From NCBI RefSeq assembly GCF_000011185.1, contig NC_002689.2, positions 1,116,001 to 1,180,000 of the forward strand: DNA of 64,000 bases. Reading direction: 5' to 3'. Below the pieces are notes generated by a model. It searched no databases. It was not told where the DNA came from and worked only from the letters and a program-made list of their open reading frames with translations. The first letter of the stretch is position 1; every line of letters begins with the position of its first letter. Of this stretch, positions 41,047 through 50,726 are shown one piece after another. The position numbers and the translations under genes were made by a program. The DNA comes from Thermoplasma volcanium GSS1 (GTDB taxonomy: Archaea; Thermoplasmatota; Thermoplasmata; Thermoplasmatales; Thermoplasmataceae).

Positions 41047-42468
41047 TCACCCCACTATTTGGCTGGATATTCCAACTAGAACAGGGAAAAGCACATAAAA
41101 AACACCGAGGAATACAACTATAGCTGCTGAAACTATCACGGCAGCTTTATTTCCCATATCCGTGGAAAATTCTCCCTTAGGTTCCTCCCAGAATAAGTAT
41201 CTCATAACTTTCATGTAATAAAATACCGATATAGCGCTGTTTATTATAGCTATAATAGCTAGCCACCAAAGGCCTGAATCGATTACTGACAGGAACAGGA
41301 AATACTTGGCGAGGAAGCCACCAGTCAATGGAATTCCAGCCAGTGATAGAAGAAGTATAGAGAAGCTAGCGGCTACATATGGTGACTTCTTGCCAAGGCC
41401 GGAAATGTTTTCGAATGTAATATTGTCTTCCTTAACCATGTTCATAGCGATGAAAGAACCGCCCTTCATAAACACGTAAACTAATGCATAAAACATACCA
41501 GCTGCTATAGCAAGACTGACTGACCTAGCAGATCCAAGTCCTACATATGAAACAACAGAAATTACGAGTATCATATAGCCTGCCTGGGCAACGGAAGAGT
41601 AGGCCAGGAGCCTTTTTACATTCATTTGAGAGAGAGCGGCAACATTGGCATAAGTCATCGTTATTATTGCTATTATAGTAAACATGTAATATACTGGTGT
41701 TGGGAAAGACTGGAAACCAACGAGGAATATCTTTAGAACTAGTACAAAGGCCATTATCTTAGTCCCAGTTGACAAATAAGCGGAAACCCCGTTTTCTGTT
41801 CCATCGTAAGCATCAATTGCCCACTGATGCATCGGGAATATTGCAAGCTTGAATCCAAACCCTATGAGAAGGAACAGCAGTGCCAGTAAGAATTCAGGCT
41901 TTGTCCCTGAATAATAGCTTATGCTAGATCCGTTCAAAACAGGGGAAAGAGAAAACGTATGTACTGAAAAGAAGTAGAAGCCTATACCCAATATTATGAA
42001 AGTAGTCGCAATCGTGCCTGTAAAAAAGTATTTTATAGTGGCTTCAAGGTTCCTCTGCTTACCGCCATATGCAGACATTATGTAGGTCATTATACTTACG
42101 GATTCGAAAGCAACGAAGGCTATTACGAGATTCCAGGTCATAGCTACTATGACCATTCCAATTACTGAGAATATTAGTGAAGCGTAGAAGACTTCTGGCC
42201 TCTTTTTAACGTACCTATACATAGGTAAACTGATAAAAAGTGCTGATATTATGAGAACAGCTGAAAAATAAACTGAAAACTTGTTTACAGTGATACCATA
42301 GGAAGAATCGTATGGTATAAAGAATACAGATAATAGTGCAGCTATCAGCGTAATAAATGAGATAGCTGCTGAGGCCTTTCCACTCTGTATGAACATACCA
42401 ACAGCAAGTACGATGAAACCCATAATAACAAGCAGTATCTCTGGTATAAATATAGAAATAAGACTCAT
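41047..42468 (-). CDS. nuoN: complex I / Fpo-like subunit N (antiporter-like)
   Basis: A 473-residue protein with about 14 membrane spans. It has the antiporter-like core: Lys in the LLFLLIGFGFKLAIFPMHQWAIDAYDG helix region, and the conserved VAALSQMNVKRLLAYSSVAQAGY segment. It is one of three proton-translocating subunits. Its start overlaps the nuoM stop by 4 nt. It is the last recognisable nuo gene. Confidence 0.94.
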   Translation of the reverse strand: MSLISIFIPEILLVIMGFIVLAVGMFIQSGKASAAISFITLIAALLSVFFIPYDSSYGITVNKFSVYFSAVLIISALFISLPMYRYVKKRPEVFYASLIFSVIGMVIVAMTWNLVIAFVAFESVSIMTYIMSAYGGKQRNLEATIKYFFTGTIATTFIILGIGFYFFSVHTFSLSPVLNGSSISYYSGTKPEFLLALLFLLIGFGFKLAIFPMHQWAIDAYDGTENGVSAYLSTGTKIMAFVLVLKIFLVGFQSFPTPVYYMFTIIAIITMTYANVAALSQMNVKRLLAYSSVAQAGYMILVISVVSYVGLGSARSVSLAIAAGMFYALVYVFMKGGSFIAMNMVKEDNITFENISGLGKKSPYVAASFSILLLSLAGIPLTGGFLAKYFLFLSVIDSGLWWLAIIAIINSAISVFYYMKVMRYLFWEEPKGEFSTDMGNKAAVIVSAAIVVFLGVFYVLFPVLVGISSQIVG

Positions 42469-44015
42469 TGCATCACCTCAAATACGTGCGCTTCAAGAAA
42501 AGCGACAACATTCGTTCGAAGAGCAGGTTCTACGGATATTGAAAGGGAAGTATTTGTATAATTGACAAGATTAGCAAAGATCAGATTGGGATAAATTCCA
42601 AGAACAAATATAACAAGCACTAAGAAGATAAGAATCATAAACTCCCCACTGTTAATATCCCTTATAAAGCCAAGGTTTTCATTGTATGGCCCATATAAGG
42701 ACCTCTGGGCAGTCCATATGTGGTAGGAAGCTGTAATTATCATCCCGAAGATTATAAGGAAGATATACCAGCTGACAGTCTGAAAGACGCCCACCACTAT
42801 CGAAAATTCTCCAATAAATCCCGCAAAACCTGGCAAGCCAAGCGAGGCAAGTAAGCCTACTAGCGTAAGCGATGCAAGTTTAGGTGCTTCTCTGTAAATG
42901 CCTCCGAGGCCGTAAACCGAGTCAGTCTTAGTATTTCTAGATATATAGTATAGCGCTGAGAATACTAGGGACATTATCAAGCCATGTGCGACTATCTGGA
43001 ACATGCCTCCTGCTGCTTCTAGTGCCCTTACGCTGTAATCTATACCAGAAGTTTCAAGAATAGAGGCGGCAAATGAAATTGTAACGAAACCCATTGCAGA
43101 GGCGCTTGCAAAGGCCATCATCTTCTTTATATTTCTTTGGAACATGGCCGTCAAAGCGAAATATATTAGACTAATTATTCCAAGCGCTATAAGCAGGTAC
43201 AATACATATACGTCAAGAGCTTTGTATGATTCTATCATTATACCGAACAGACCATAGCCCCCCATCATAGATATTGCACCCGCAAGTATCACACTGCCCG
43301 GATATGGAGCAGAATAATAGGAATCCGGAAGCCATGAGTGTATAGGAAATGACGGCATCTTAACCAGGAAACCAAACAAGAAGCCAAATATCACGAAACC
43401 CTTGTAAAATAATGAAAGTTTTGGGAGGATAGACATCAGTGGGCCTATCTCAAATGTAGGAGATGCAAGATAAACATAAGACTGAGAATAAAGGGTAAAT
43501 ATTGACAGCAAGATAAACACTGAACCTATATGTGTGTAGACAAAAAACTTGAGGGATATCGAATTCTTATTCCCAATCCCATACCTTCCTATCATGAAGT
43601 AAACGGGTATCAACACAACTTCCCAGAATATGTAGAAAAAGAGGAAATCCCTCGATATAAGTAAACCTATTAGACCTGCAAGTACGGTCATCTCTAGGCC
43701 AAAAAAGGCGGAACCGTAATTCCTGTCAGTTATTAGGACTGCGATTAATATAACAACGGCGCTAAGGATCAAAAGAGCATCTGTCAGCCCAGAGACAGCG
43801 ATGCTGAATGAGAGGCCTAAACTGCTGGAAATTACAACTGAATACCTGGATATGAAGCCACCAGAGTATGATGAAAATCTCATTATGGAATAGGCGATTA
43901 TTTCTAGTAGAAGTATGCCAGAGAGTACAGCGGATACTTCCTTAGCGTGTTTACCAGTGAAATAAGAAATTATTCCAAATATTATTGCTGAAATTAGAAT
44001 AATCAATGCAAACAT
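42465..44015 (-). CDS. nuoM: complex I / Fpo-like subunit M (antiporter-like)
   Basis: A 516-residue protein with about 14 membrane spans. The family motifs are FYIFWEVVLIPVYFMIG (Glu), KMPSFPIHSWLPDSYYSAPYPGS, and MFQRNIKKMMAFASASAMGF. It is a proton-translocating membrane-arm subunit. It follows nuoL by 1 bp and overlaps nuoN by 4 nt. The length is normal. Confidence 0.95.
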   Translation of the reverse strand: MFALIILISAIIFGIISYFTGKHAKEVSAVLSGILLLEIIAYSIMRFSSYSGGFISRYSVVISSSLGLSFSIAVSGLTDALLILSAVVILIAVLITDRNYGSAFFGLEMTVLAGLIGLLISRDFLFFYIFWEVVLIPVYFMIGRYGIGNKNSISLKFFVYTHIGSVFILLSIFTLYSQSYVYLASPTFEIGPLMSILPKLSLFYKGFVIFGFLFGFLVKMPSFPIHSWLPDSYYSAPYPGSVILAGAISMMGGYGLFGIMIESYKALDVYVLYLLIALGIISLIYFALTAMFQRNIKKMMAFASASAMGFVTISFAASILETSGIDYSVRALEAAGGMFQIVAHGLIMSLVFSALYYISRNTKTDSVYGLGGIYREAPKLASLTLVGLLASLGLPGFAGFIGEFSIVVGVFQTVSWYIFLIIFGMIITASYHIWTAQRSLYGPYNENLGFIRDINSGEFMILIFLVLVIFVLGIYPNLIFANLVNYTNTSLSISVEPALRTNVVAFLEAHVFEVMQ

Positions 44016-44016
44016 C

Positions 44017-45072
44017 TTACATCAGCTCCACAATTTCCACTATAATAAAGATAACTATAGCGGCTAGAATAAGTACAGCCACGTAGTTTTCTAGGACACC
44101 GTTCTGCAAGTTCCTGAAATATGAACCCAGTGTTACAGTATCTGAGCCAAGATCGTTCACAGCACTATTATATTTGTTCTCGAAACCGCTAAAGGCGGCA
44201 GAAAGTGGTAGTATAACCCGCTCTGAGATTATTCTTGTATAGAGCACATCAATATAGAATTTGTTTTTCACTAGTTTATAGTACCAGGTCTTAGATATAT
44301 CCCAGGTCTTCCATTTCTCGAAACCATATATGTAGAGATCTACGAAGAAGCCTATAGCTAAAAGTATTGCTGGCAATGTAGATATGTAAACCGGTGCAGT
44401 TGGAACTCTAATTGCTGCAGCAACGCCATCTAACGTAGGTGCAACAAATTTATAGAACGGAACCTGCCATATACCGAGTATTAGTGCGAACAGAGAAAGG
44501 ATCATGAGCGGTATCGTTGCAAGCACAGGAGGATCTTTTGCCCTTTCGGCAAGAACTGATCTTGGCTTTCCAGTTGCTACAAGAAAGAACATTCTAAAGG
44601 TATATAGGGTAGTTAGCAGTGAGCCAATCATTAGGAAGAGGAATGGCCATATATGGGCAAAAGAGGGAGCAGAAGTGAAGTAATTGTACGATGCGTATAT
44701 GATTGGATCCTTAGAGAAGTAGCCAGATGTACCCGGAAAAGCTACCAAGGCCAATGCACCTATGAAGAATGCGGTGGTAGTTATAGGCATCCTCTTCCAT
44801 AGGCCGCCCATCTGTTTGGCATCCCTCAAATCCATCATGGCTATTAGGAACGCACCGGCACTCATAAAGAGCAATGCCTTGAATATAGCGTGAGACACGA
44901 GATGGAACATTCCAAGAGAAACGGCAACGCTGCCTATTATTGGGCCTAGGCCTATCGCAGCAAGCATATATCCAAGTTGGCTTATAGTGGAATAGGCAAG
45001 GATTCTTTTTACGTCGTTAACCACCAGGCCAAGGATGCCTGCATAAAGTGCAGTAAATGAGCCTATATCCAA
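44017..45072 (-). CDS. nuoL: complex I subunit L, C-terminal fragment (frame broken by tandem duplication)
   Basis: A 351-codon frame with a TTG start inside the duplicated DNA. It repeats GSFTALYAGILGLVVNDVKR from the N-terminal fragment, then continues with the LAAIGLGPIIGSVAVSLGMFHLVSHAIFKALLF helices, further spans and the long lateral helix with a C-terminal span that NuoL uses to brace the membrane arm. On its own it lacks the first eight or so spans. Deleting 97 bp joins it in frame to the upstream fragment. Whether internal initiation occurs is unknown. Confidence 0.85.
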   Translation of the reverse strand: MDIGSFTALYAGILGLVVNDVKRILAYSTISQLGYMLAAIGLGPIIGSVAVSLGMFHLVSHAIFKALLFMSAGAFLIAMMDLRDAKQMGGLWKRMPITTTAFFIGALALVAFPGTSGYFSKDPIIYASYNYFTSAPSFAHIWPFLFLMIGSLLTTLYTFRMFFLVATGKPRSVLAERAKDPPVLATIPLMILSLFALILGIWQVPFYKFVAPTLDGVAAAIRVPTAPVYISTLPAILLAIGFFVDLYIYGFEKWKTWDISKTWYYKLVKNKFYIDVLYTRIISERVILPLSAAFSGFENKYNSAVNDLGSDTVTLGSYFRNLQNGVLENYVAVLILAAIVIFIIVEIVELM

Positions 45073-45163
45073 GTTGGCTTATAGTGGAATAGGCAAGGAT
45101 TCTTTTTACGTCGTTAACCACCAGGCCAAGGATGCCTGCATAAAGTGCAGTAAATGAGCCTAT
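44967..45163. repeat. nuoL: exact 97-bp tandem duplication inside nuoL
   Basis: The sequence at 44967-45066 recurs identically at 45064-45163 (offset 97). The 100-bp match means the copies share a 3-bp TAT at the junction, a typical slippage or microhomology footprint. The unit is not a multiple of three, so it shifts the nuoL frame. Outside the match the copies diverge at once. It could be a natural mutation, a reversible switch, or a sequencing/assembly error. Confidence 0.95.
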
Positions 45164-46024
45164 TATAGCGACAGCGTACATTGCAAAGGGTGCAGCATAA
45201 AGAAACACCTGGTACAAGCGTGCCACTAGGTAAACTCCCGCAGTAACCATCGTCGCAGCATGGATGAGCGCCGATACTGTGGTAGGGCCTTCCATTGCAT
45301 CAGGTATCCATACATGAAGCGGAAACTGGGCAGATTTGCCAATGGCGGCACCAAGGATAAATATAGCAATGATTCCAAGTCTTACCTTTCCTATCTGAGA
45401 TGCGATTAAGCTGGCGTGCGATATTAAATACGGAATGCTAAGAGGATCCCCGGTGACATTAACAAGAGAGTAGTACAGAATAGACATTCCTATTATGAAT
45501 GATAAATCTCCCACTCTTGTGACGATAAAAGCCTTTTTCGCCGCTGCAGTAGCGTTTGGCTTAAAGAACCAGAATCCTATCAGGAGATAGGAACAAAGAC
45601 CTACCAATTCCCAAAATAAGAATAGCAGGACTAAGTTAGAGGATATTACAAGGCCCAGCATCCCTGCTGTAAATAGGGATGTTTCCGCGAAATAAACATG
45701 CTTGTTGGGGTCATCCTTCATGTAGTATATTGCAAAGAGGTGTATCATTAAGGAAACGAAGGAGACCATTATAGCCATTGTTATCGCCAGATTATCGATG
45801 TATATGCCGTAGTCAATATTGTAGAACCAATGATACGAATTATATATAGGGCCCTTCAAAACTTGGAAGTAACTCAAAATGGCGAAAACTAACGCCAAAA
45901 ATATAAAGAATGAGGCAACTGCCCCAGACCACTTCCTATAGAATTTGCCTATCACTAGAGAAAAGACAAAGCCAAGCAATGGGGCGATGAATATCATCCA
46001 TCCATAAACGAACATCTTTACCAC
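45017..46024 (-). CDS. nuoL: complex I subunit L, N-terminal fragment (frame broken by tandem duplication)
   Basis: A 335-codon frame. It has the NuoL N-terminal spans, LLFLFWELVGLCSYLLIGFW (key Glu), KSAQFPLHVWIPDAMEGPTTVSALIHAATMV and the VNDVKRILAYSTISQLGY segment. It then runs out of frame into the second copy of the 97-bp repeat and ends after 14 foreign residues. The start overlaps nuoK by 7 nt. As read, a full-length NuoL cannot be made. Without one repeat unit the gene would encode 636 residues, a normal NuoL length. Confidence 0.88.
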   Translation of the reverse strand: MVKMFVYGWMIFIAPLLGFVFSLVIGKFYRKWSGAVASFFIFLALVFAILSYFQVLKGPIYNSYHWFYNIDYGIYIDNLAITMAIMVSFVSLMIHLFAIYYMKDDPNKHVYFAETSLFTAGMLGLVISSNLVLLFLFWELVGLCSYLLIGFWFFKPNATAAAKKAFIVTRVGDLSFIIGMSILYYSLVNVTGDPLSIPYLISHASLIASQIGKVRLGIIAIFILGAAIGKSAQFPLHVWIPDAMEGPTTVSALIHAATMVTAGVYLVARLYQVFLYAAPFAMYAVAIIGSFTALYAGILGLVVNDVKRILAYSTISQLGYRLIYCTLCRHPWPGG

Positions 46025-46329
46025 CTTATCTCCTTTAGCAAAGATATGTCGATCTTGCCGAACTTTCTATACACGATAACGAGCAATCCAAGACCTACGG
46101 CAGATTCAACAACACCGATAGCTATAGCAAAGAGAGCAAACACATAGGGATCTATTTGTACAGAGCTTGAATAAAAGTACGAACCAATGCCGATTATAGA
46201 TAGGATAGCTGAATTGATCATAATCTCTATAGAAATAAGCATTTTTATACCAACTCTTGACGTCATCACGCCATAAAGGCCAATAGTGAACAACAGAAGC
46301 GCAACAAATGAAACAGCTGCAGCAAACAC
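46018..46329 (-). CDS. nuoK: complex I / Fpo-like subunit K
   Basis: A 103-residue protein with three membrane spans. The conserved Glu residues of the proton channel lie in LISIEIMINSAILSIIG and ALFAIAIGVVESAVGLGLLVIVYR. The normal NuoK length is about 100. It abuts the nuoJ C-terminal gene and overlaps nuoL by 7 nt. Confidence 0.94.
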   Translation of the reverse strand: MFAAAVSFVALLLFTIGLYGVMTSRVGIKMLISIEIMINSAILSIIGIGSYFYSSSVQIDPYVFALFAIAIGVVESAVGLGLLVIVYRKFGKIDISLLKEIRW

Positions 46330-46548
46330 TTATTCCTCACCTCTTGCAACATACATAACACCTATTACAGCGCCAACTATAATTACGGATAGGAGTTCGA
46401 ATGGGACTATGTAAACATTGAAAAACGAAAACCCAATAAGCGATATGTCTTGAGAGACGGGCACGAAAGTTCCCGGCATAACTATAACTGGGATAGCCGT
46501 AGCAATAAAGAATAATGCGGCTGAAACTAAAGCTAGATATTTATTCAA
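46330..46548 (-). CDS. nuoJ: complex I / Fpo-like subunit J, C-terminal half
   Basis: A 72-residue protein with two spans. The C-terminal YIVPFELLSVIIVGAVIGVMYVAR corresponds to the last helix of NuoJ (PFELxSxxxxxAxxGA). The usual NuoJ is one polypeptide of about 165-185 residues. Here the N- and C-terminal halves are separate genes overlapping by 8 nt, as with fpoJ in two parts in methanogens. Confidence 0.85.
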   Translation of the reverse strand: MNKYLALVSAALFFIATAIPVIVMPGTFVPVSQDISLIGFSFFNVYIVPFELLSVIIVGAVIGVMYVARGEE

Positions 46549-46789
46549 TTTCCTTACCTCCTGTTAACATAACTGTAAACACGATCAGCGTCACTACAGC
46601 ACCTATGTATACAAGAATTTCAACTGCAGCCACAAATGAGGCACCTAGAAATAGAAATTCAGCGGCTAAAATAAAGAGAAATAGGAATAAGTATATTGCT
46701 GAATGCGTGATGTTTTTCTCCTTAACCGAAAGAACTGAGAACGCTATCAGAAATACTGCTATTATGGAAAAAATAAGAGTGTATATCAT
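46541..46789 (-). CDS. nuoJ: complex I / Fpo-like subunit J, N-terminal half
   Basis: An 82-residue protein with three spans. HSAIYLFLFLFILAAEFLFLGASFVAAVEILVYIGAVVTLIVF matches the N-terminal half of NuoJ, including the pi-bulge helix region. It ends GGKEIE. It overlaps both nuoI (4 nt) and the second nuoJ gene (8 nt), so the split is tightly coupled. Confidence 0.88.
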   Translation of the reverse strand: MIYTLIFSIIAVFLIAFSVLSVKEKNITHSAIYLFLFLFILAAEFLFLGASFVAAVEILVYIGAVVTLIVFTVMLTGGKEIE

Positions 46790-47217
46790 TTCTTTACCTC
46801 CTCTTCTGTCTTTTCTAGCTCTTGGGGACTATAGAAGAAATTATTCCTAGTTCTTGCAGTTTCCAGTTCGTGTGTCAAGTATATAGCTTCAGTCGGGCAT
46901 ATCTCTTCACAATTCCTGCAAACTGTACAGGTTCCAAAGTTTACCTGTGGATATAAGTTTCTTTTATTGTGAGGATTGTTCCTCTCCACCACTATCATTC
47001 TAATCGACAAATTCGGGCATACCTGTTCACAGAGTGTGCATCCAACACAGTCATCCATGCTAAGGAATATCCTAAATTTGAATCTTGGAGGTGTATATGC
47101 TTTTTCTTCAGGATACTGCACAGTTATTGGCTTTTTAAATAGGTGCTTAAAGACCGTAAACATGCCCTGAAGCATCCCAACAAATGGGATTCTTTTTGGT
47201 TCTTTAACTTCAATCAC
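46786..47217 (-). CDS. nuoI: complex I / Fpo-like subunit I (2x[4Fe-4S] ferredoxin-like)
   Basis: A 143-residue subunit. The N-terminal helix GMLQGMFTVFKHLFKKPITVQYP binds at the membrane. Two cluster motifs follow: CVGCTLCEQVCP and CTVCRNCEEICP. It passes electrons toward NuoB. A frame extends upstream to an ATG at 47289 inside nuoH, but a GTG at 47217 overlaps the nuoH stop by 4 nt (GTGA), has a GGGGTGAT site just before it and starts where family similarity starts. I chose it. Confidence 0.94.
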   Translation of the reverse strand: MIEVKEPKRIPFVGMLQGMFTVFKHLFKKPITVQYPEEKAYTPPRFKFRIFLSMDDCVGCTLCEQVCPNLSIRMIVVERNNPHNKRNLYPQVNFGTCTVCRNCEEICPTEAIYLTHELETARTRNNFFYSPQELEKTEEEVKK

Positions 47218-48254
47218 GATATCACCCCTAATGTTAGGAAGCCTGCCCATATTAGATTTATAATTGCAATGGGCAAAAGTATCTTCCAACCAAAGTTAAC
47301 AAAACGATCAATTCTTATTCTAGGCATTGAAAGCCATATTAAGAAGGAAATAAGAACCATGATGAGCCCTTTTATGAGCAAATAAATAAAGCCAGCGTAG
47401 GATGAATAGGGCCCATTATAGCCACCAAGGTATAAAAGCGAAATCACAAGAGAACCGAGGAATATGCTTCCAAACATTCCCATGTAGAAGAGACCAAATC
47501 TCATCCCTGAATATTCAGTTGAATACCCTGATACTATTTCACTGTCACTTTCTGATAAATCGAACGGGGTGTAAGAAGATCTTGCTATCATGGCCACCAT
47601 AAATACGAAAAGACCTAAGGGCTGAAGAATGCCGAATGGTATGAATTGAGTTGAAACCAGTGAAGAAAATTCTAATGGTGTCTTATTTACAGCTGAATCC
47701 ATCATTACCAGTGCAATAGCACTCAGCATCATCGGCACTTCGAATGAAACGTCCTTAGCAACACCACGCATTGCACCTAGAAGGGCGTATTTGTTGTGTG
47801 AACTTATTCCTGCTAATATTTCACCTATTGGCATCATAGCAATTGCACCAAAGAACAGGATAAGTGAGACATCCGAGTGGGTTATTGTTAATGATCCGAT
47901 CCAGTAAAAATCTCCATACGGTATTAAAATAAAGCCGACTACCAGACCAATAAAAACAATGTATGGAGCGGTCTTATAGGCAAAATCATCTCTTAACTTG
48001 GGAAGTATAGATTCTTTGCCAACTAACTTTATTGCATCAGCTATCAACTGTAAGCTTCCGAACTTACCTACTCTATTGGGCCCATATCTTAGCTGCAACC
48101 TAGCCATGTATTTCCTGAACAAGTATATCATCGCTATTAAGGAGACGAAAACAAATATTAGAAAGAATATCGTTTCGAATATATACGCCAGGAAATACGA
48201 AGCGTAGTGGCCCGTTATTTGAAAGAAGAGCTGCAACCTAAGCAGTATGTTCAT
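47214..48254 (-). CDS. nuoH: complex I / Fpo-like subunit H
   Basis: A 346-residue protein with eight spans. Family motifs are LQLRYGPNRVGKFGSLQLIADAIKL, ALLGAMRGVAKDVSFEVPM (charged residues of the quinone funnel) and YTPFDLSESDSEIVSGYSTEYSGM. It forms the quinone-binding junction with NuoB and NuoD. It overlaps nuoD by 4 nt at its start. Confidence 0.95.
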   Translation of the reverse strand: MNILLRLQLFFQITGHYASYFLAYIFETIFFLIFVFVSLIAMIYLFRKYMARLQLRYGPNRVGKFGSLQLIADAIKLVGKESILPKLRDDFAYKTAPYIVFIGLVVGFILIPYGDFYWIGSLTITHSDVSLILFFGAIAMMPIGEILAGISSHNKYALLGAMRGVAKDVSFEVPMMLSAIALVMMDSAVNKTPLEFSSLVSTQFIPFGILQPLGLFVFMVAMIARSSYTPFDLSESDSEIVSGYSTEYSGMRFGLFYMGMFGSIFLGSLVISLLYLGGYNGPYSSYAGFIYLLIKGLIMVLISFLIWLSMPRIRIDRFVNFGWKILLPIAIINLIWAGFLTLGVIS

Positions 48255-49360
48255 CTATCCACCTCCCCGAAAACGAGATCTATAGAACCGCCTATGGAAA
48301 TAAGATCGGCAATCATCTGTCCTTTAGCAAGTGCTGGTAGGACTGAAAGGTTCTTAAAAGTAGGGCTTCTAACACGCACCCTGTAAGGCCTCAGCGATCC
48401 ATCTCCAACAATATACACCCCGAACTCGCCTTTCGGCGATTCGGTTCTTGCATAAACTTCTCCCTGCCCACGCAACCTGATCATCAAAGGCTTTTTCGCC
48501 TTCTGATTAAAGTAAGGGCCTGCCGGCAGTTTCTGTATCGTTTGATCTATTATTTTAACGGACTGCCTCATCTCCTCTATCCTAACTAAAAACCTGGCTA
48601 GGTTATCACCCTTGAAAGAGACAGGGATATCGAAATTAACTTTATCATATACTAAATAGGGTTCTGCCTTTCTAACATCGTACTCAACGCCAGAAGCCCT
48701 CAGCATAGGACCAGTGACGCCATAATCTATAGCCATCTCCTTTGATAGTATACCTACTCCTTTGGTTCTTGATAAAAATATATCATTCTTTACGAACAGA
48801 TTAGCAATCATGTTCAGCTCCTTTGGAAATTCTGTTATAAACTGTTTTATGTGATCTAGAGCTTCGTCTGTAACGTCTTGGTATACGCCACCTATACTCA
48901 TATAATTTAGCTGCTGCCTTGATCCAGATACCTCTGTGAATATCTTCAGAATCTTCTCCCTCTCTTTGAAGCAGTAGAAGAAAGGTGTCAGCATACCAAG
49001 GTCCAGACCAAAGGCCCCAAGCCAGACAAGATGGCTTGCTATCCTATTTAATTCACCCATCATTACTCTGATCCACTTTGCCCTGCCTGGCGGCTCTACG
49101 TCAAGCAATTTTTCTGCCGCTTCTAAGTATCCAATTTCCATGTTCATAGCAGCAACATAATCCATACGGTCAAAGTAGATCATATTGTCGCAATAAAATT
49201 GCAGCTCACAGATCTTCTCTGCATTCCTGTGCAGGTATCCTATAATTGGTTCAACGTCCTTAACAATTTCACCGTCTAGCTTAACTTTGAGCCTTAATAC
49301 GCCGTGCATTGATGGATGCTGCGGTCCAAAGTTTACCTCTGTCCACTCTTCCATTACCAA
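48251..49360 (-). CDS. nuoD: complex I / Fpo-like subunit D (49-kDa type)
   Basis: A 369-residue subunit. NFGPQHPSMHGVLRL is the conserved N-terminal quinone-site segment. YLHRNAEKICE and the C-terminal SIGGSIDLVFGEVDR are family marks. The [NiFe]-hydrogenase-type cysteines are absent, as in all complex I. It forms the quinone site with NuoB. It overlaps nuoC by 7 nt and nuoH by 4 nt. Confidence 0.95.
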   Translation of the reverse strand: MVMEEWTEVNFGPQHPSMHGVLRLKVKLDGEIVKDVEPIIGYLHRNAEKICELQFYCDNMIYFDRMDYVAAMNMEIGYLEAAEKLLDVEPPGRAKWIRVMMGELNRIASHLVWLGAFGLDLGMLTPFFYCFKEREKILKIFTEVSGSRQQLNYMSIGGVYQDVTDEALDHIKQFITEFPKELNMIANLFVKNDIFLSRTKGVGILSKEMAIDYGVTGPMLRASGVEYDVRKAEPYLVYDKVNFDIPVSFKGDNLARFLVRIEEMRQSVKIIDQTIQKLPAGPYFNQKAKKPLMIRLRGQGEVYARTESPKGEFGVYIVGDGSLRPYRVRVRSPTFKNLSVLPALAKGQMIADLISIGGSIDLVFGEVDR

Positions 49361-49809
49361 CCGCCCTCCGGGTCAAATGTAACGTAATCGTTTCCTTCTT
49401 CGTCCATGTTCACATACTGCGCTTTGCTAAGGTCATAATTTTTCCTGAGTGGATGGCCAACCCAACCCTCGGGAAGAAAGAGCCTCTTAAGATAGGGATG
49501 ACCATCGAATACTATCCCTACCAGATCGTATTCTTCTCTTTCATCCCAGTTCGCGGCATTCCACAATGGAGTTAAGCTAGGTACGTGGTTATCCGTTGTC
49601 TCGGTTTTTACTATTATATACTCGTTCTTCTCGAGATTATATAGATGATAAACAACTTCTATATGGTCTACGTAATCTACCCCCGTAGTAAGGGATAGAT
49701 TATATCCTTGTGCCTTAAGATCCCTCATCAAAGCGAGGAGATTTTCTTTTGCGACTTTGATTATCCTCCTTCCGTCCTTTCCTTTTTCTTCGCCGAGTAT
49801 ATCTACCAT
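49354..49809 (-). CDS. nuoC: complex I / Fpo-like subunit C (30-kDa type)
   Basis: A 151-residue subunit. The C-terminal signature is WDEREEYDLVGIVFDGHPYLKRLFLPEGWVGHPLRK, with the conserved ERE-x-D-x2-G and HP-x-L-x-R. It is separate from NuoD (no CD fusion). One-base overlap with nuoB and 7 nt with nuoD. Confidence 0.95.
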   Translation of the reverse strand: MVDILGEEKGKDGRRIIKVAKENLLALMRDLKAQGYNLSLTTGVDYVDHIEVVYHLYNLEKNEYIIVKTETTDNHVPSLTPLWNAANWDEREEYDLVGIVFDGHPYLKRLFLPEGWVGHPLRKNYDLSKAQYVNMDEEGNDYVTFDPEGGW

Positions 49810-50282
49810 TATCTATCAGCCTCCCCCCTTATCTTCTTTTGAAGTAGTATTATGCCATTTGTAAGCGCTTCTGGTGTAGGTGGGCATCCCGGCACATAAA
49901 CATCGACAGGAACGACCTTATCAACACCCAAAACTACGGAATAACCTTGGTTATACGGGCCGCCTTGTATAACACATACGCCCTGTGCTATGACGTATTT
50001 TGGATATGGCATTTCGTCGTATATTCTTCTTACCCTGGGTGCCATTTTCTTCGTGACAGTTCCAGACACTATCATCAGGTCTGACTGCCTAGGGGAATTT
50101 CTAAATATTTCACTACCGAATCGAGAAATATCCATATCAGAAGCCTGTATTGCCATCATCTCTATGGCGCAGCAGGCTAATCCAAATGTCAATGGCCAGA
50201 GAGAATTGCTCCTAGCCCATTCGTAAGCTTGTTCAACCGTAGTTGTTACAATACCAACATCTCCCGTCTTTATTTCAACCAC
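49809..50282 (-). CDS. nuoB: complex I / Fpo-like subunit B (N2 cluster)
   Basis: A 157-residue subunit. The N2 cluster ligands C37-C38 (FGLACCAIE), C103 (GVCVIQGG) and C133 ([11 protein letters not shown]) are all present. It passes electrons to quinone. It overlaps nuoA by 13 nt. The order A-B-C-D-H-I-J-K-L-M-N lacks E, F and G, as in methanogen Fpo. Confidence 0.95.
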
Positions 50283-50704
50283 CTCATATAACCAAGTTTA
50301 AAGGCGTAATAAACAGCAAACAGTGGCATGGCAAGGAAAATCAAGGTTTCTATGAATGGAATGAGCCCTAGAGATTTAAAGTCATAAGCCCATGGAAATA
50401 AAAGAAGCATATCAACGTCAAAAACTACGAAAAGCAAAACAACGATGTAATATTGGTTTATGGATGGCCTTCCCCATATTTCTCTAGCCACTTCCCCACT
50501 CTCATATGGTTCGAGATACCTTTGATCTTCACCGGGCGGGGTATCCTCATACGCAGCTTTTTTTAGTATATCTTCAGTCCTTAGACTTATCTTGTTATCC
50601 CCGTACCTGTTCGCACCCAAAGCAGGCAGAATCTTGAAGCCGAAAATCAAGGCAAGCGGAAGGACTACAATGATTATAAGCAACGGAATATACCCGTCTA
50701 ACAT
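50270..50704 (-). CDS. nuoA: complex I / Fpo-like subunit A
   Basis: A 144-residue subunit with three spans. The conserved segment [25 protein letters not shown] is present. The frame opens at an ATG at 50725, but the only TATA-like box (TTATATA, around 50727-50735) is too close to it. The box lies about 25 nt upstream of a second ATG at 50704 ([10 protein letters not shown]), which makes that a normal leaderless start. The first gene of the nuo operon. Confidence 0.9.
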
Positions 50705-50726
50705 ATTAAGAGTATCGTTTGACATT

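Follow-up and report, generated by a model that had tools for sequence, protein, structure and literature searches.

Tandem duplications constitute an ordinary class of mutation, one that is known to arise spontaneously in thermoacidophilic archaea. In the pyrE gene of S. acidocaldarius, 13 of 163 spontaneous mutations are tandem duplications of more than 5 bp (PMC7785828, Table 6). The duplication in the nuoL gene of Thermoplasma volcanium described here is likewise a tandem duplication in a thermoacidophilic archaeon, and in pyrE this class makes up ∼8% of independent loss-of-function mutations (PMC7785828). However, the pyrE alleles come from FOA-selected, living mutants, whereas the nuoL duplication is present in a genome record only. 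A second system for comparison is the ssp1 gene of fission yeast, where microhomology-mediated tandem duplications (MTDs), as in nuoL, have short microhomology at both ends and break the frame of a coding gene (PMC13207564). Reversion is described there for the ssp1 alleles, whereas the nuoL allele is revertible in principle. Long-term culture of Ferroplasma was considered as a further parallel and set aside, since the section on it reports single-base substitutions only (PMC5473848). Among papers retrieved by title or abstract on T. volcanium nuoL, complex I, or pseudogenes, none describes this break.

Related acidophilic archaea carry a complex I with the gene content NuoABCDHIJKLMN and without NuoEFG (PMC3750248), and T. 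volcanium has the same set. The genome of T. volcanium GSS1 is a single contig of 1,584,804 bp, and the window analyzed here is the 64,000-nucleotide stretch at positions 1116001–1180000. The nearest genomes to this window belong to the genus Thermoplasma. In the archaeal complex I of these congeners nuoL is intact, whereas in T. volcanium it is divided between two frames. The features discussed below are as follows, in window coordinates.

41047–50725, minus strand: nuoABCDHIJ1J2KLMN cluster; all genes but nuoL intact
45017–46024, minus strand: nuoL 5′ frame, 335 aa; covers NuoL from residue 1 to ∼322 and ends in a tail that is out of frame
44017–45072, minus strand: nuoL 3′ frame, 351 aa; without a strong start, candidates TTG 45072, GTG 45024, and ATG 44967
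45020–45078, minus strand: stretch in which both nuoL frames are open (stop-to-stop overlap 45017–45078); the sole site for a joining −1 shift
45064–45160, minus strand: high-coordinate copy of the 97-bp unit (5′ copy in the nuoL sense), in the correct nuoL frame; its 31 codons are 97% identical to congeners
44967–45063, minus strand: low-coordinate copy of the 97-bp unit (3′ copy in the nuoL sense)
45161–45163, no strand: TAT microhomology, common to 44967–44969 and 45064–45066

The nuoL gene (44017–46024, minus strand) contains the 97-bp unit twice, head to tail. At an offset of 97, the perfect match extends over 100 bp (44967–45066 versus 45064–45163), a length that rules out coincidence. 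As 97 is not divisible by three, the gene is thrown out of frame. Removal of one unit from the 2008-bp span leaves 1911 bp, or 637 codons including the stop; the congener frame of 644 codons from stop to stop fits a protein of 636 aa preceded by a lead that is not translated. A first-pass annotation had proposed the exact duplication with its 100-bp match and shared TAT, the overlapping frames of 335 and 351 codons, and the restored gene of 637 codons, and recomputation returned the same coordinates, unit length, and arithmetic. The two frames match the TIGR01974 profile (630 positions) at 4–323 and 288–628, identifying the gene as a member of the NuoL family along its length. The Proton_antipo_M domain (PF00361) is split between them, with the break near position 191 of the 294-position profile, and no single unbroken frame of T. 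volcanium nuoL covers it.

The duplication stands alone in the sequence surveyed. Tandem Repeats Finder assigns the 97-bp array a score of 395, and the runner-up array in the window scores 55. Of exact tandem duplications with periods of at least 12 bp, it is the only one in 364 kb of the T. volcanium genome, a sample comprising the window and fifteen 20-kb stretches. The other genes of the nuo cluster are open and align over their full or nearly full length with those of four congeners.

All four congeners have a single copy of the unit, as matches to query positions 1–965 and 962 onward overlap by ∼100 bp in the target, and their frames run through the site for 644–663 codons. Among the relatives scored, one frame of 541–711 codons passes through the site, with the single exception of a frame of 416 codons. 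The two shortest frames, in Thermogymnomonas (L089, 541 codons) and UBA582 (L092, 416 codons), were considered as possible independent nuoL breaks and rejected. The Thermogymnomonas acidicola draft has frame breaks in nuoH, nuoL, and nuoM together, which are probably indel errors, and the UBA582 gene contains unknown bases and reads as a draft error. Exact tandem duplications with periods of 12–1000 bp were absent from 88 stretches (648 kb) of the relatives' DNA. Judged from these comparisons, the duplication is the derived state, as had been supposed from the T. volcanium sequence alone, and the product of a single event.

The favored account is that one spontaneous 97-bp tandem duplication inactivated nuoL in the sequenced lineage, and from the sequence we put the chance of this at about even. 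The repeat ends suggest how such an event might have occurred. Beyond the 100-bp run there is a single mismatch (44966 A versus 45063 C), followed by three more matches (AGC, 44963–44965). The ends therefore read AGCaTAT and AGCcTAT, and both sites lie 97 bp apart in the single-copy parent sequence. The replicating strand would have slipped back or switched template between these look-alike sites, and the segment between them would have been copied twice. NuoL translation would then terminate in the out-of-frame tail, within the proton-antiporter domain and a short way past the junction, leaving the lineage with a complex I allele that has lost its function but could be reverted by loss of one unit. 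The duplication, its derived state, the frame break, and the lack of other damage are directly observed, and the slippage mechanism, the loss of function, and the revertibility are inferred. The repeat combines exact head-to-tail copies, short microhomology, and a single-copy parent state, as is expected of an MTD. A nuoL null allele is somewhat unexpected, given that complex I should matter in a respiring cell.

As evidence for the mechanism, the 3-bp microhomology is weak. Microhomology of at least 3 bp is expected at 5.7% of random 97-bp duplications in the window; the 6-of-7 junction match is expected at 0.9%, a figure to be read with the caveat that this criterion was picked after inspection. 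The junction fits slippage or template switching, whether in the cell or in a PCR tube. At the duplication site there is no strong hairpin (z = 0.70), and hairpin-assisted slippage was accordingly dropped as unsupported. There is also no repeated motif beyond a few base pairs that would predispose the site to duplication.

The mention of the PCR tube leads to a different explanation, in which the duplication is an artefact of the published sequence. It could derive from a 100-bp contig overlap that was left unmerged, from PCR template switching, or from an E. coli clone in which a burdensome membrane-protein gene became disrupted. In that case the living strain would carry one unit and an intact nuoL. 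We consider an artefact nearly as likely as a real mutation, at somewhat less than an even chance. The two copies are exactly identical. The event is the only one of its kind in the 364 kb sampled, and nuoL, which lies amid an otherwise intact operon, is the sole disrupted gene of the 64-kb block. Moreover, the rest of nuoL is fully conserved, as it would be if the cell's own copy were intact. A single local error would look just like this, a lone exact duplicate in a gene otherwise perfectly kept. The record dates from the Sanger era. It has also been revised, having reached version 4 by 2007 (BA000011.4, PMC2222616). However, one Sanger read is longer than the 97-bp unit, such that ordinary assembly should resolve the copies, and the junction microhomology is slightly above the expectation for a blind join (5.7%). 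This last point does not separate mutation from artefact, because PCR template switching yields the same microhomology. A sequencing or assembly error and a laboratory mutation were both among the options listed in the first-pass annotation, and both are upheld.

The quality of the surrounding record can be judged from the syntenic 67 kb of one congener (G001). Of the ORFs there, 83 are matched by a relative in the window, and only nuoL among them is split over two frames; the record is therefore not generally poor or ridden with frame errors. In the reverse direction, none of 74 window ORFs is split when compared with the same congener.

The state of nuoL outside the repeat bears on the age of the break. 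The absence of differences between the two copies (0 in 97 sites) gives an upper bound on divergence of ∼3% (95%), which on its own falls short of proving a laboratory event. Outside the unit, 603 nuoL codons stay open. Relative to congeners, the two nuoL pieces have dN values of 0.07–0.13, and those of nuoM and nuoN are 0.16–0.18. The identity of nuoL to seven outgroups equals that of the congeners' own genes within a few percent. Both halves are thus undecayed, and it follows that the break is recent, that it exists only in the record, or that the gene is still used. For recency, this absence of decay outside the repeat is a better argument than the identity of the copies. The earlier assertion that an exact duplication must be recent is overstated, as exactness alone only bounds divergence at ∼3%.

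If the gene is still used, NuoL might be produced either as two co-assembling polypeptides or by ribosomes that shift by −1 where the frames overlap. The product of such a shift would be a NuoL that contains, in a conserved stretch, an internal repeat of 32 residues. Both halves remain conserved, the frames overlap at 45017–45078, and candidate start codons for the 3′ frame lie at 45072, 45024, and 44967. Recency explains the conservation equally well, however, and the break cuts the antiporter domain PF00361. In addition, the overlap contains no slippery heptamer of the form X XXY YYZ, the hallmark of a programmed −1 frameshift, and inspection by eye reveals no clear ribosome-binding site upstream of these internal start codons. 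Continued production of NuoL by either route is very improbable.

The preferred reading, a spontaneous inactivating duplication, implies an allele that could revert, which raises the question of whether the duplication is a selected on/off switch of complex I. Tandem duplications can revert precisely, and the frame-breaking MTDs of fission yeast ssp1 are described as reversible (PMC13207564). Precise revertibility is generic to any tandem duplication, however, and hence is not a sign of selection. No relative carries a duplicate at the nuoL site, and a second such locus is absent from the 364 kb sampled. The site has neither a predisposing hairpin nor a predisposing repeat beyond a few base pairs, and the relatives' 648 kb, being free of exact tandem duplications, offers no sign of recurrent switching. 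The reversible switch proposed in the first-pass annotation is thus not supported, and we regard phase variation of this kind as highly unlikely. More doubtful still is the specific version in which the duplication is real and is kept as a high-frequency revertible allele that switches off complex I pumping in a fraction of the population. We know of no switch of this kind in any archaeal respiratory complex.

The distinction between mutation and artefact has practical consequences. If the duplication is real, the sequenced strain is without a working NuoL, and physiological accounts and metabolic models would be wrong about its complex I. If it is an artefact, the reference record needs correction.

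No second nuoL was seen in T. volcanium. Two antiporter-like genes outside the nuo cluster were examined as a spare NuoL and rejected, as they sit in a separate hydrogenase-like cluster. This second cluster, with NuoH-, NuoD-, NuoB-, and antiporter-like genes, is located at genome positions 1528548–1535075. By eye, its large subunit is devoid of the nickel-binding cysteines of hydrogenases (INGFHAASH at the first site), and the cluster may encode an energy-converting hydrogenase-related (Ehr) complex.

Within the nuo cluster, nuoJ is represented by two short genes (window positions 46330–46828, minus strand; 95 and 77 codons from stop to stop). The same two-gene nuoJ is found in the congeners; the split therefore predates the genus and is unrelated to the nuoL break. 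Elsewhere in the genome, at positions 121608–122546, direct repeats of ∼28 bp spaced 66–73 bp apart have the appearance of a CRISPR array.
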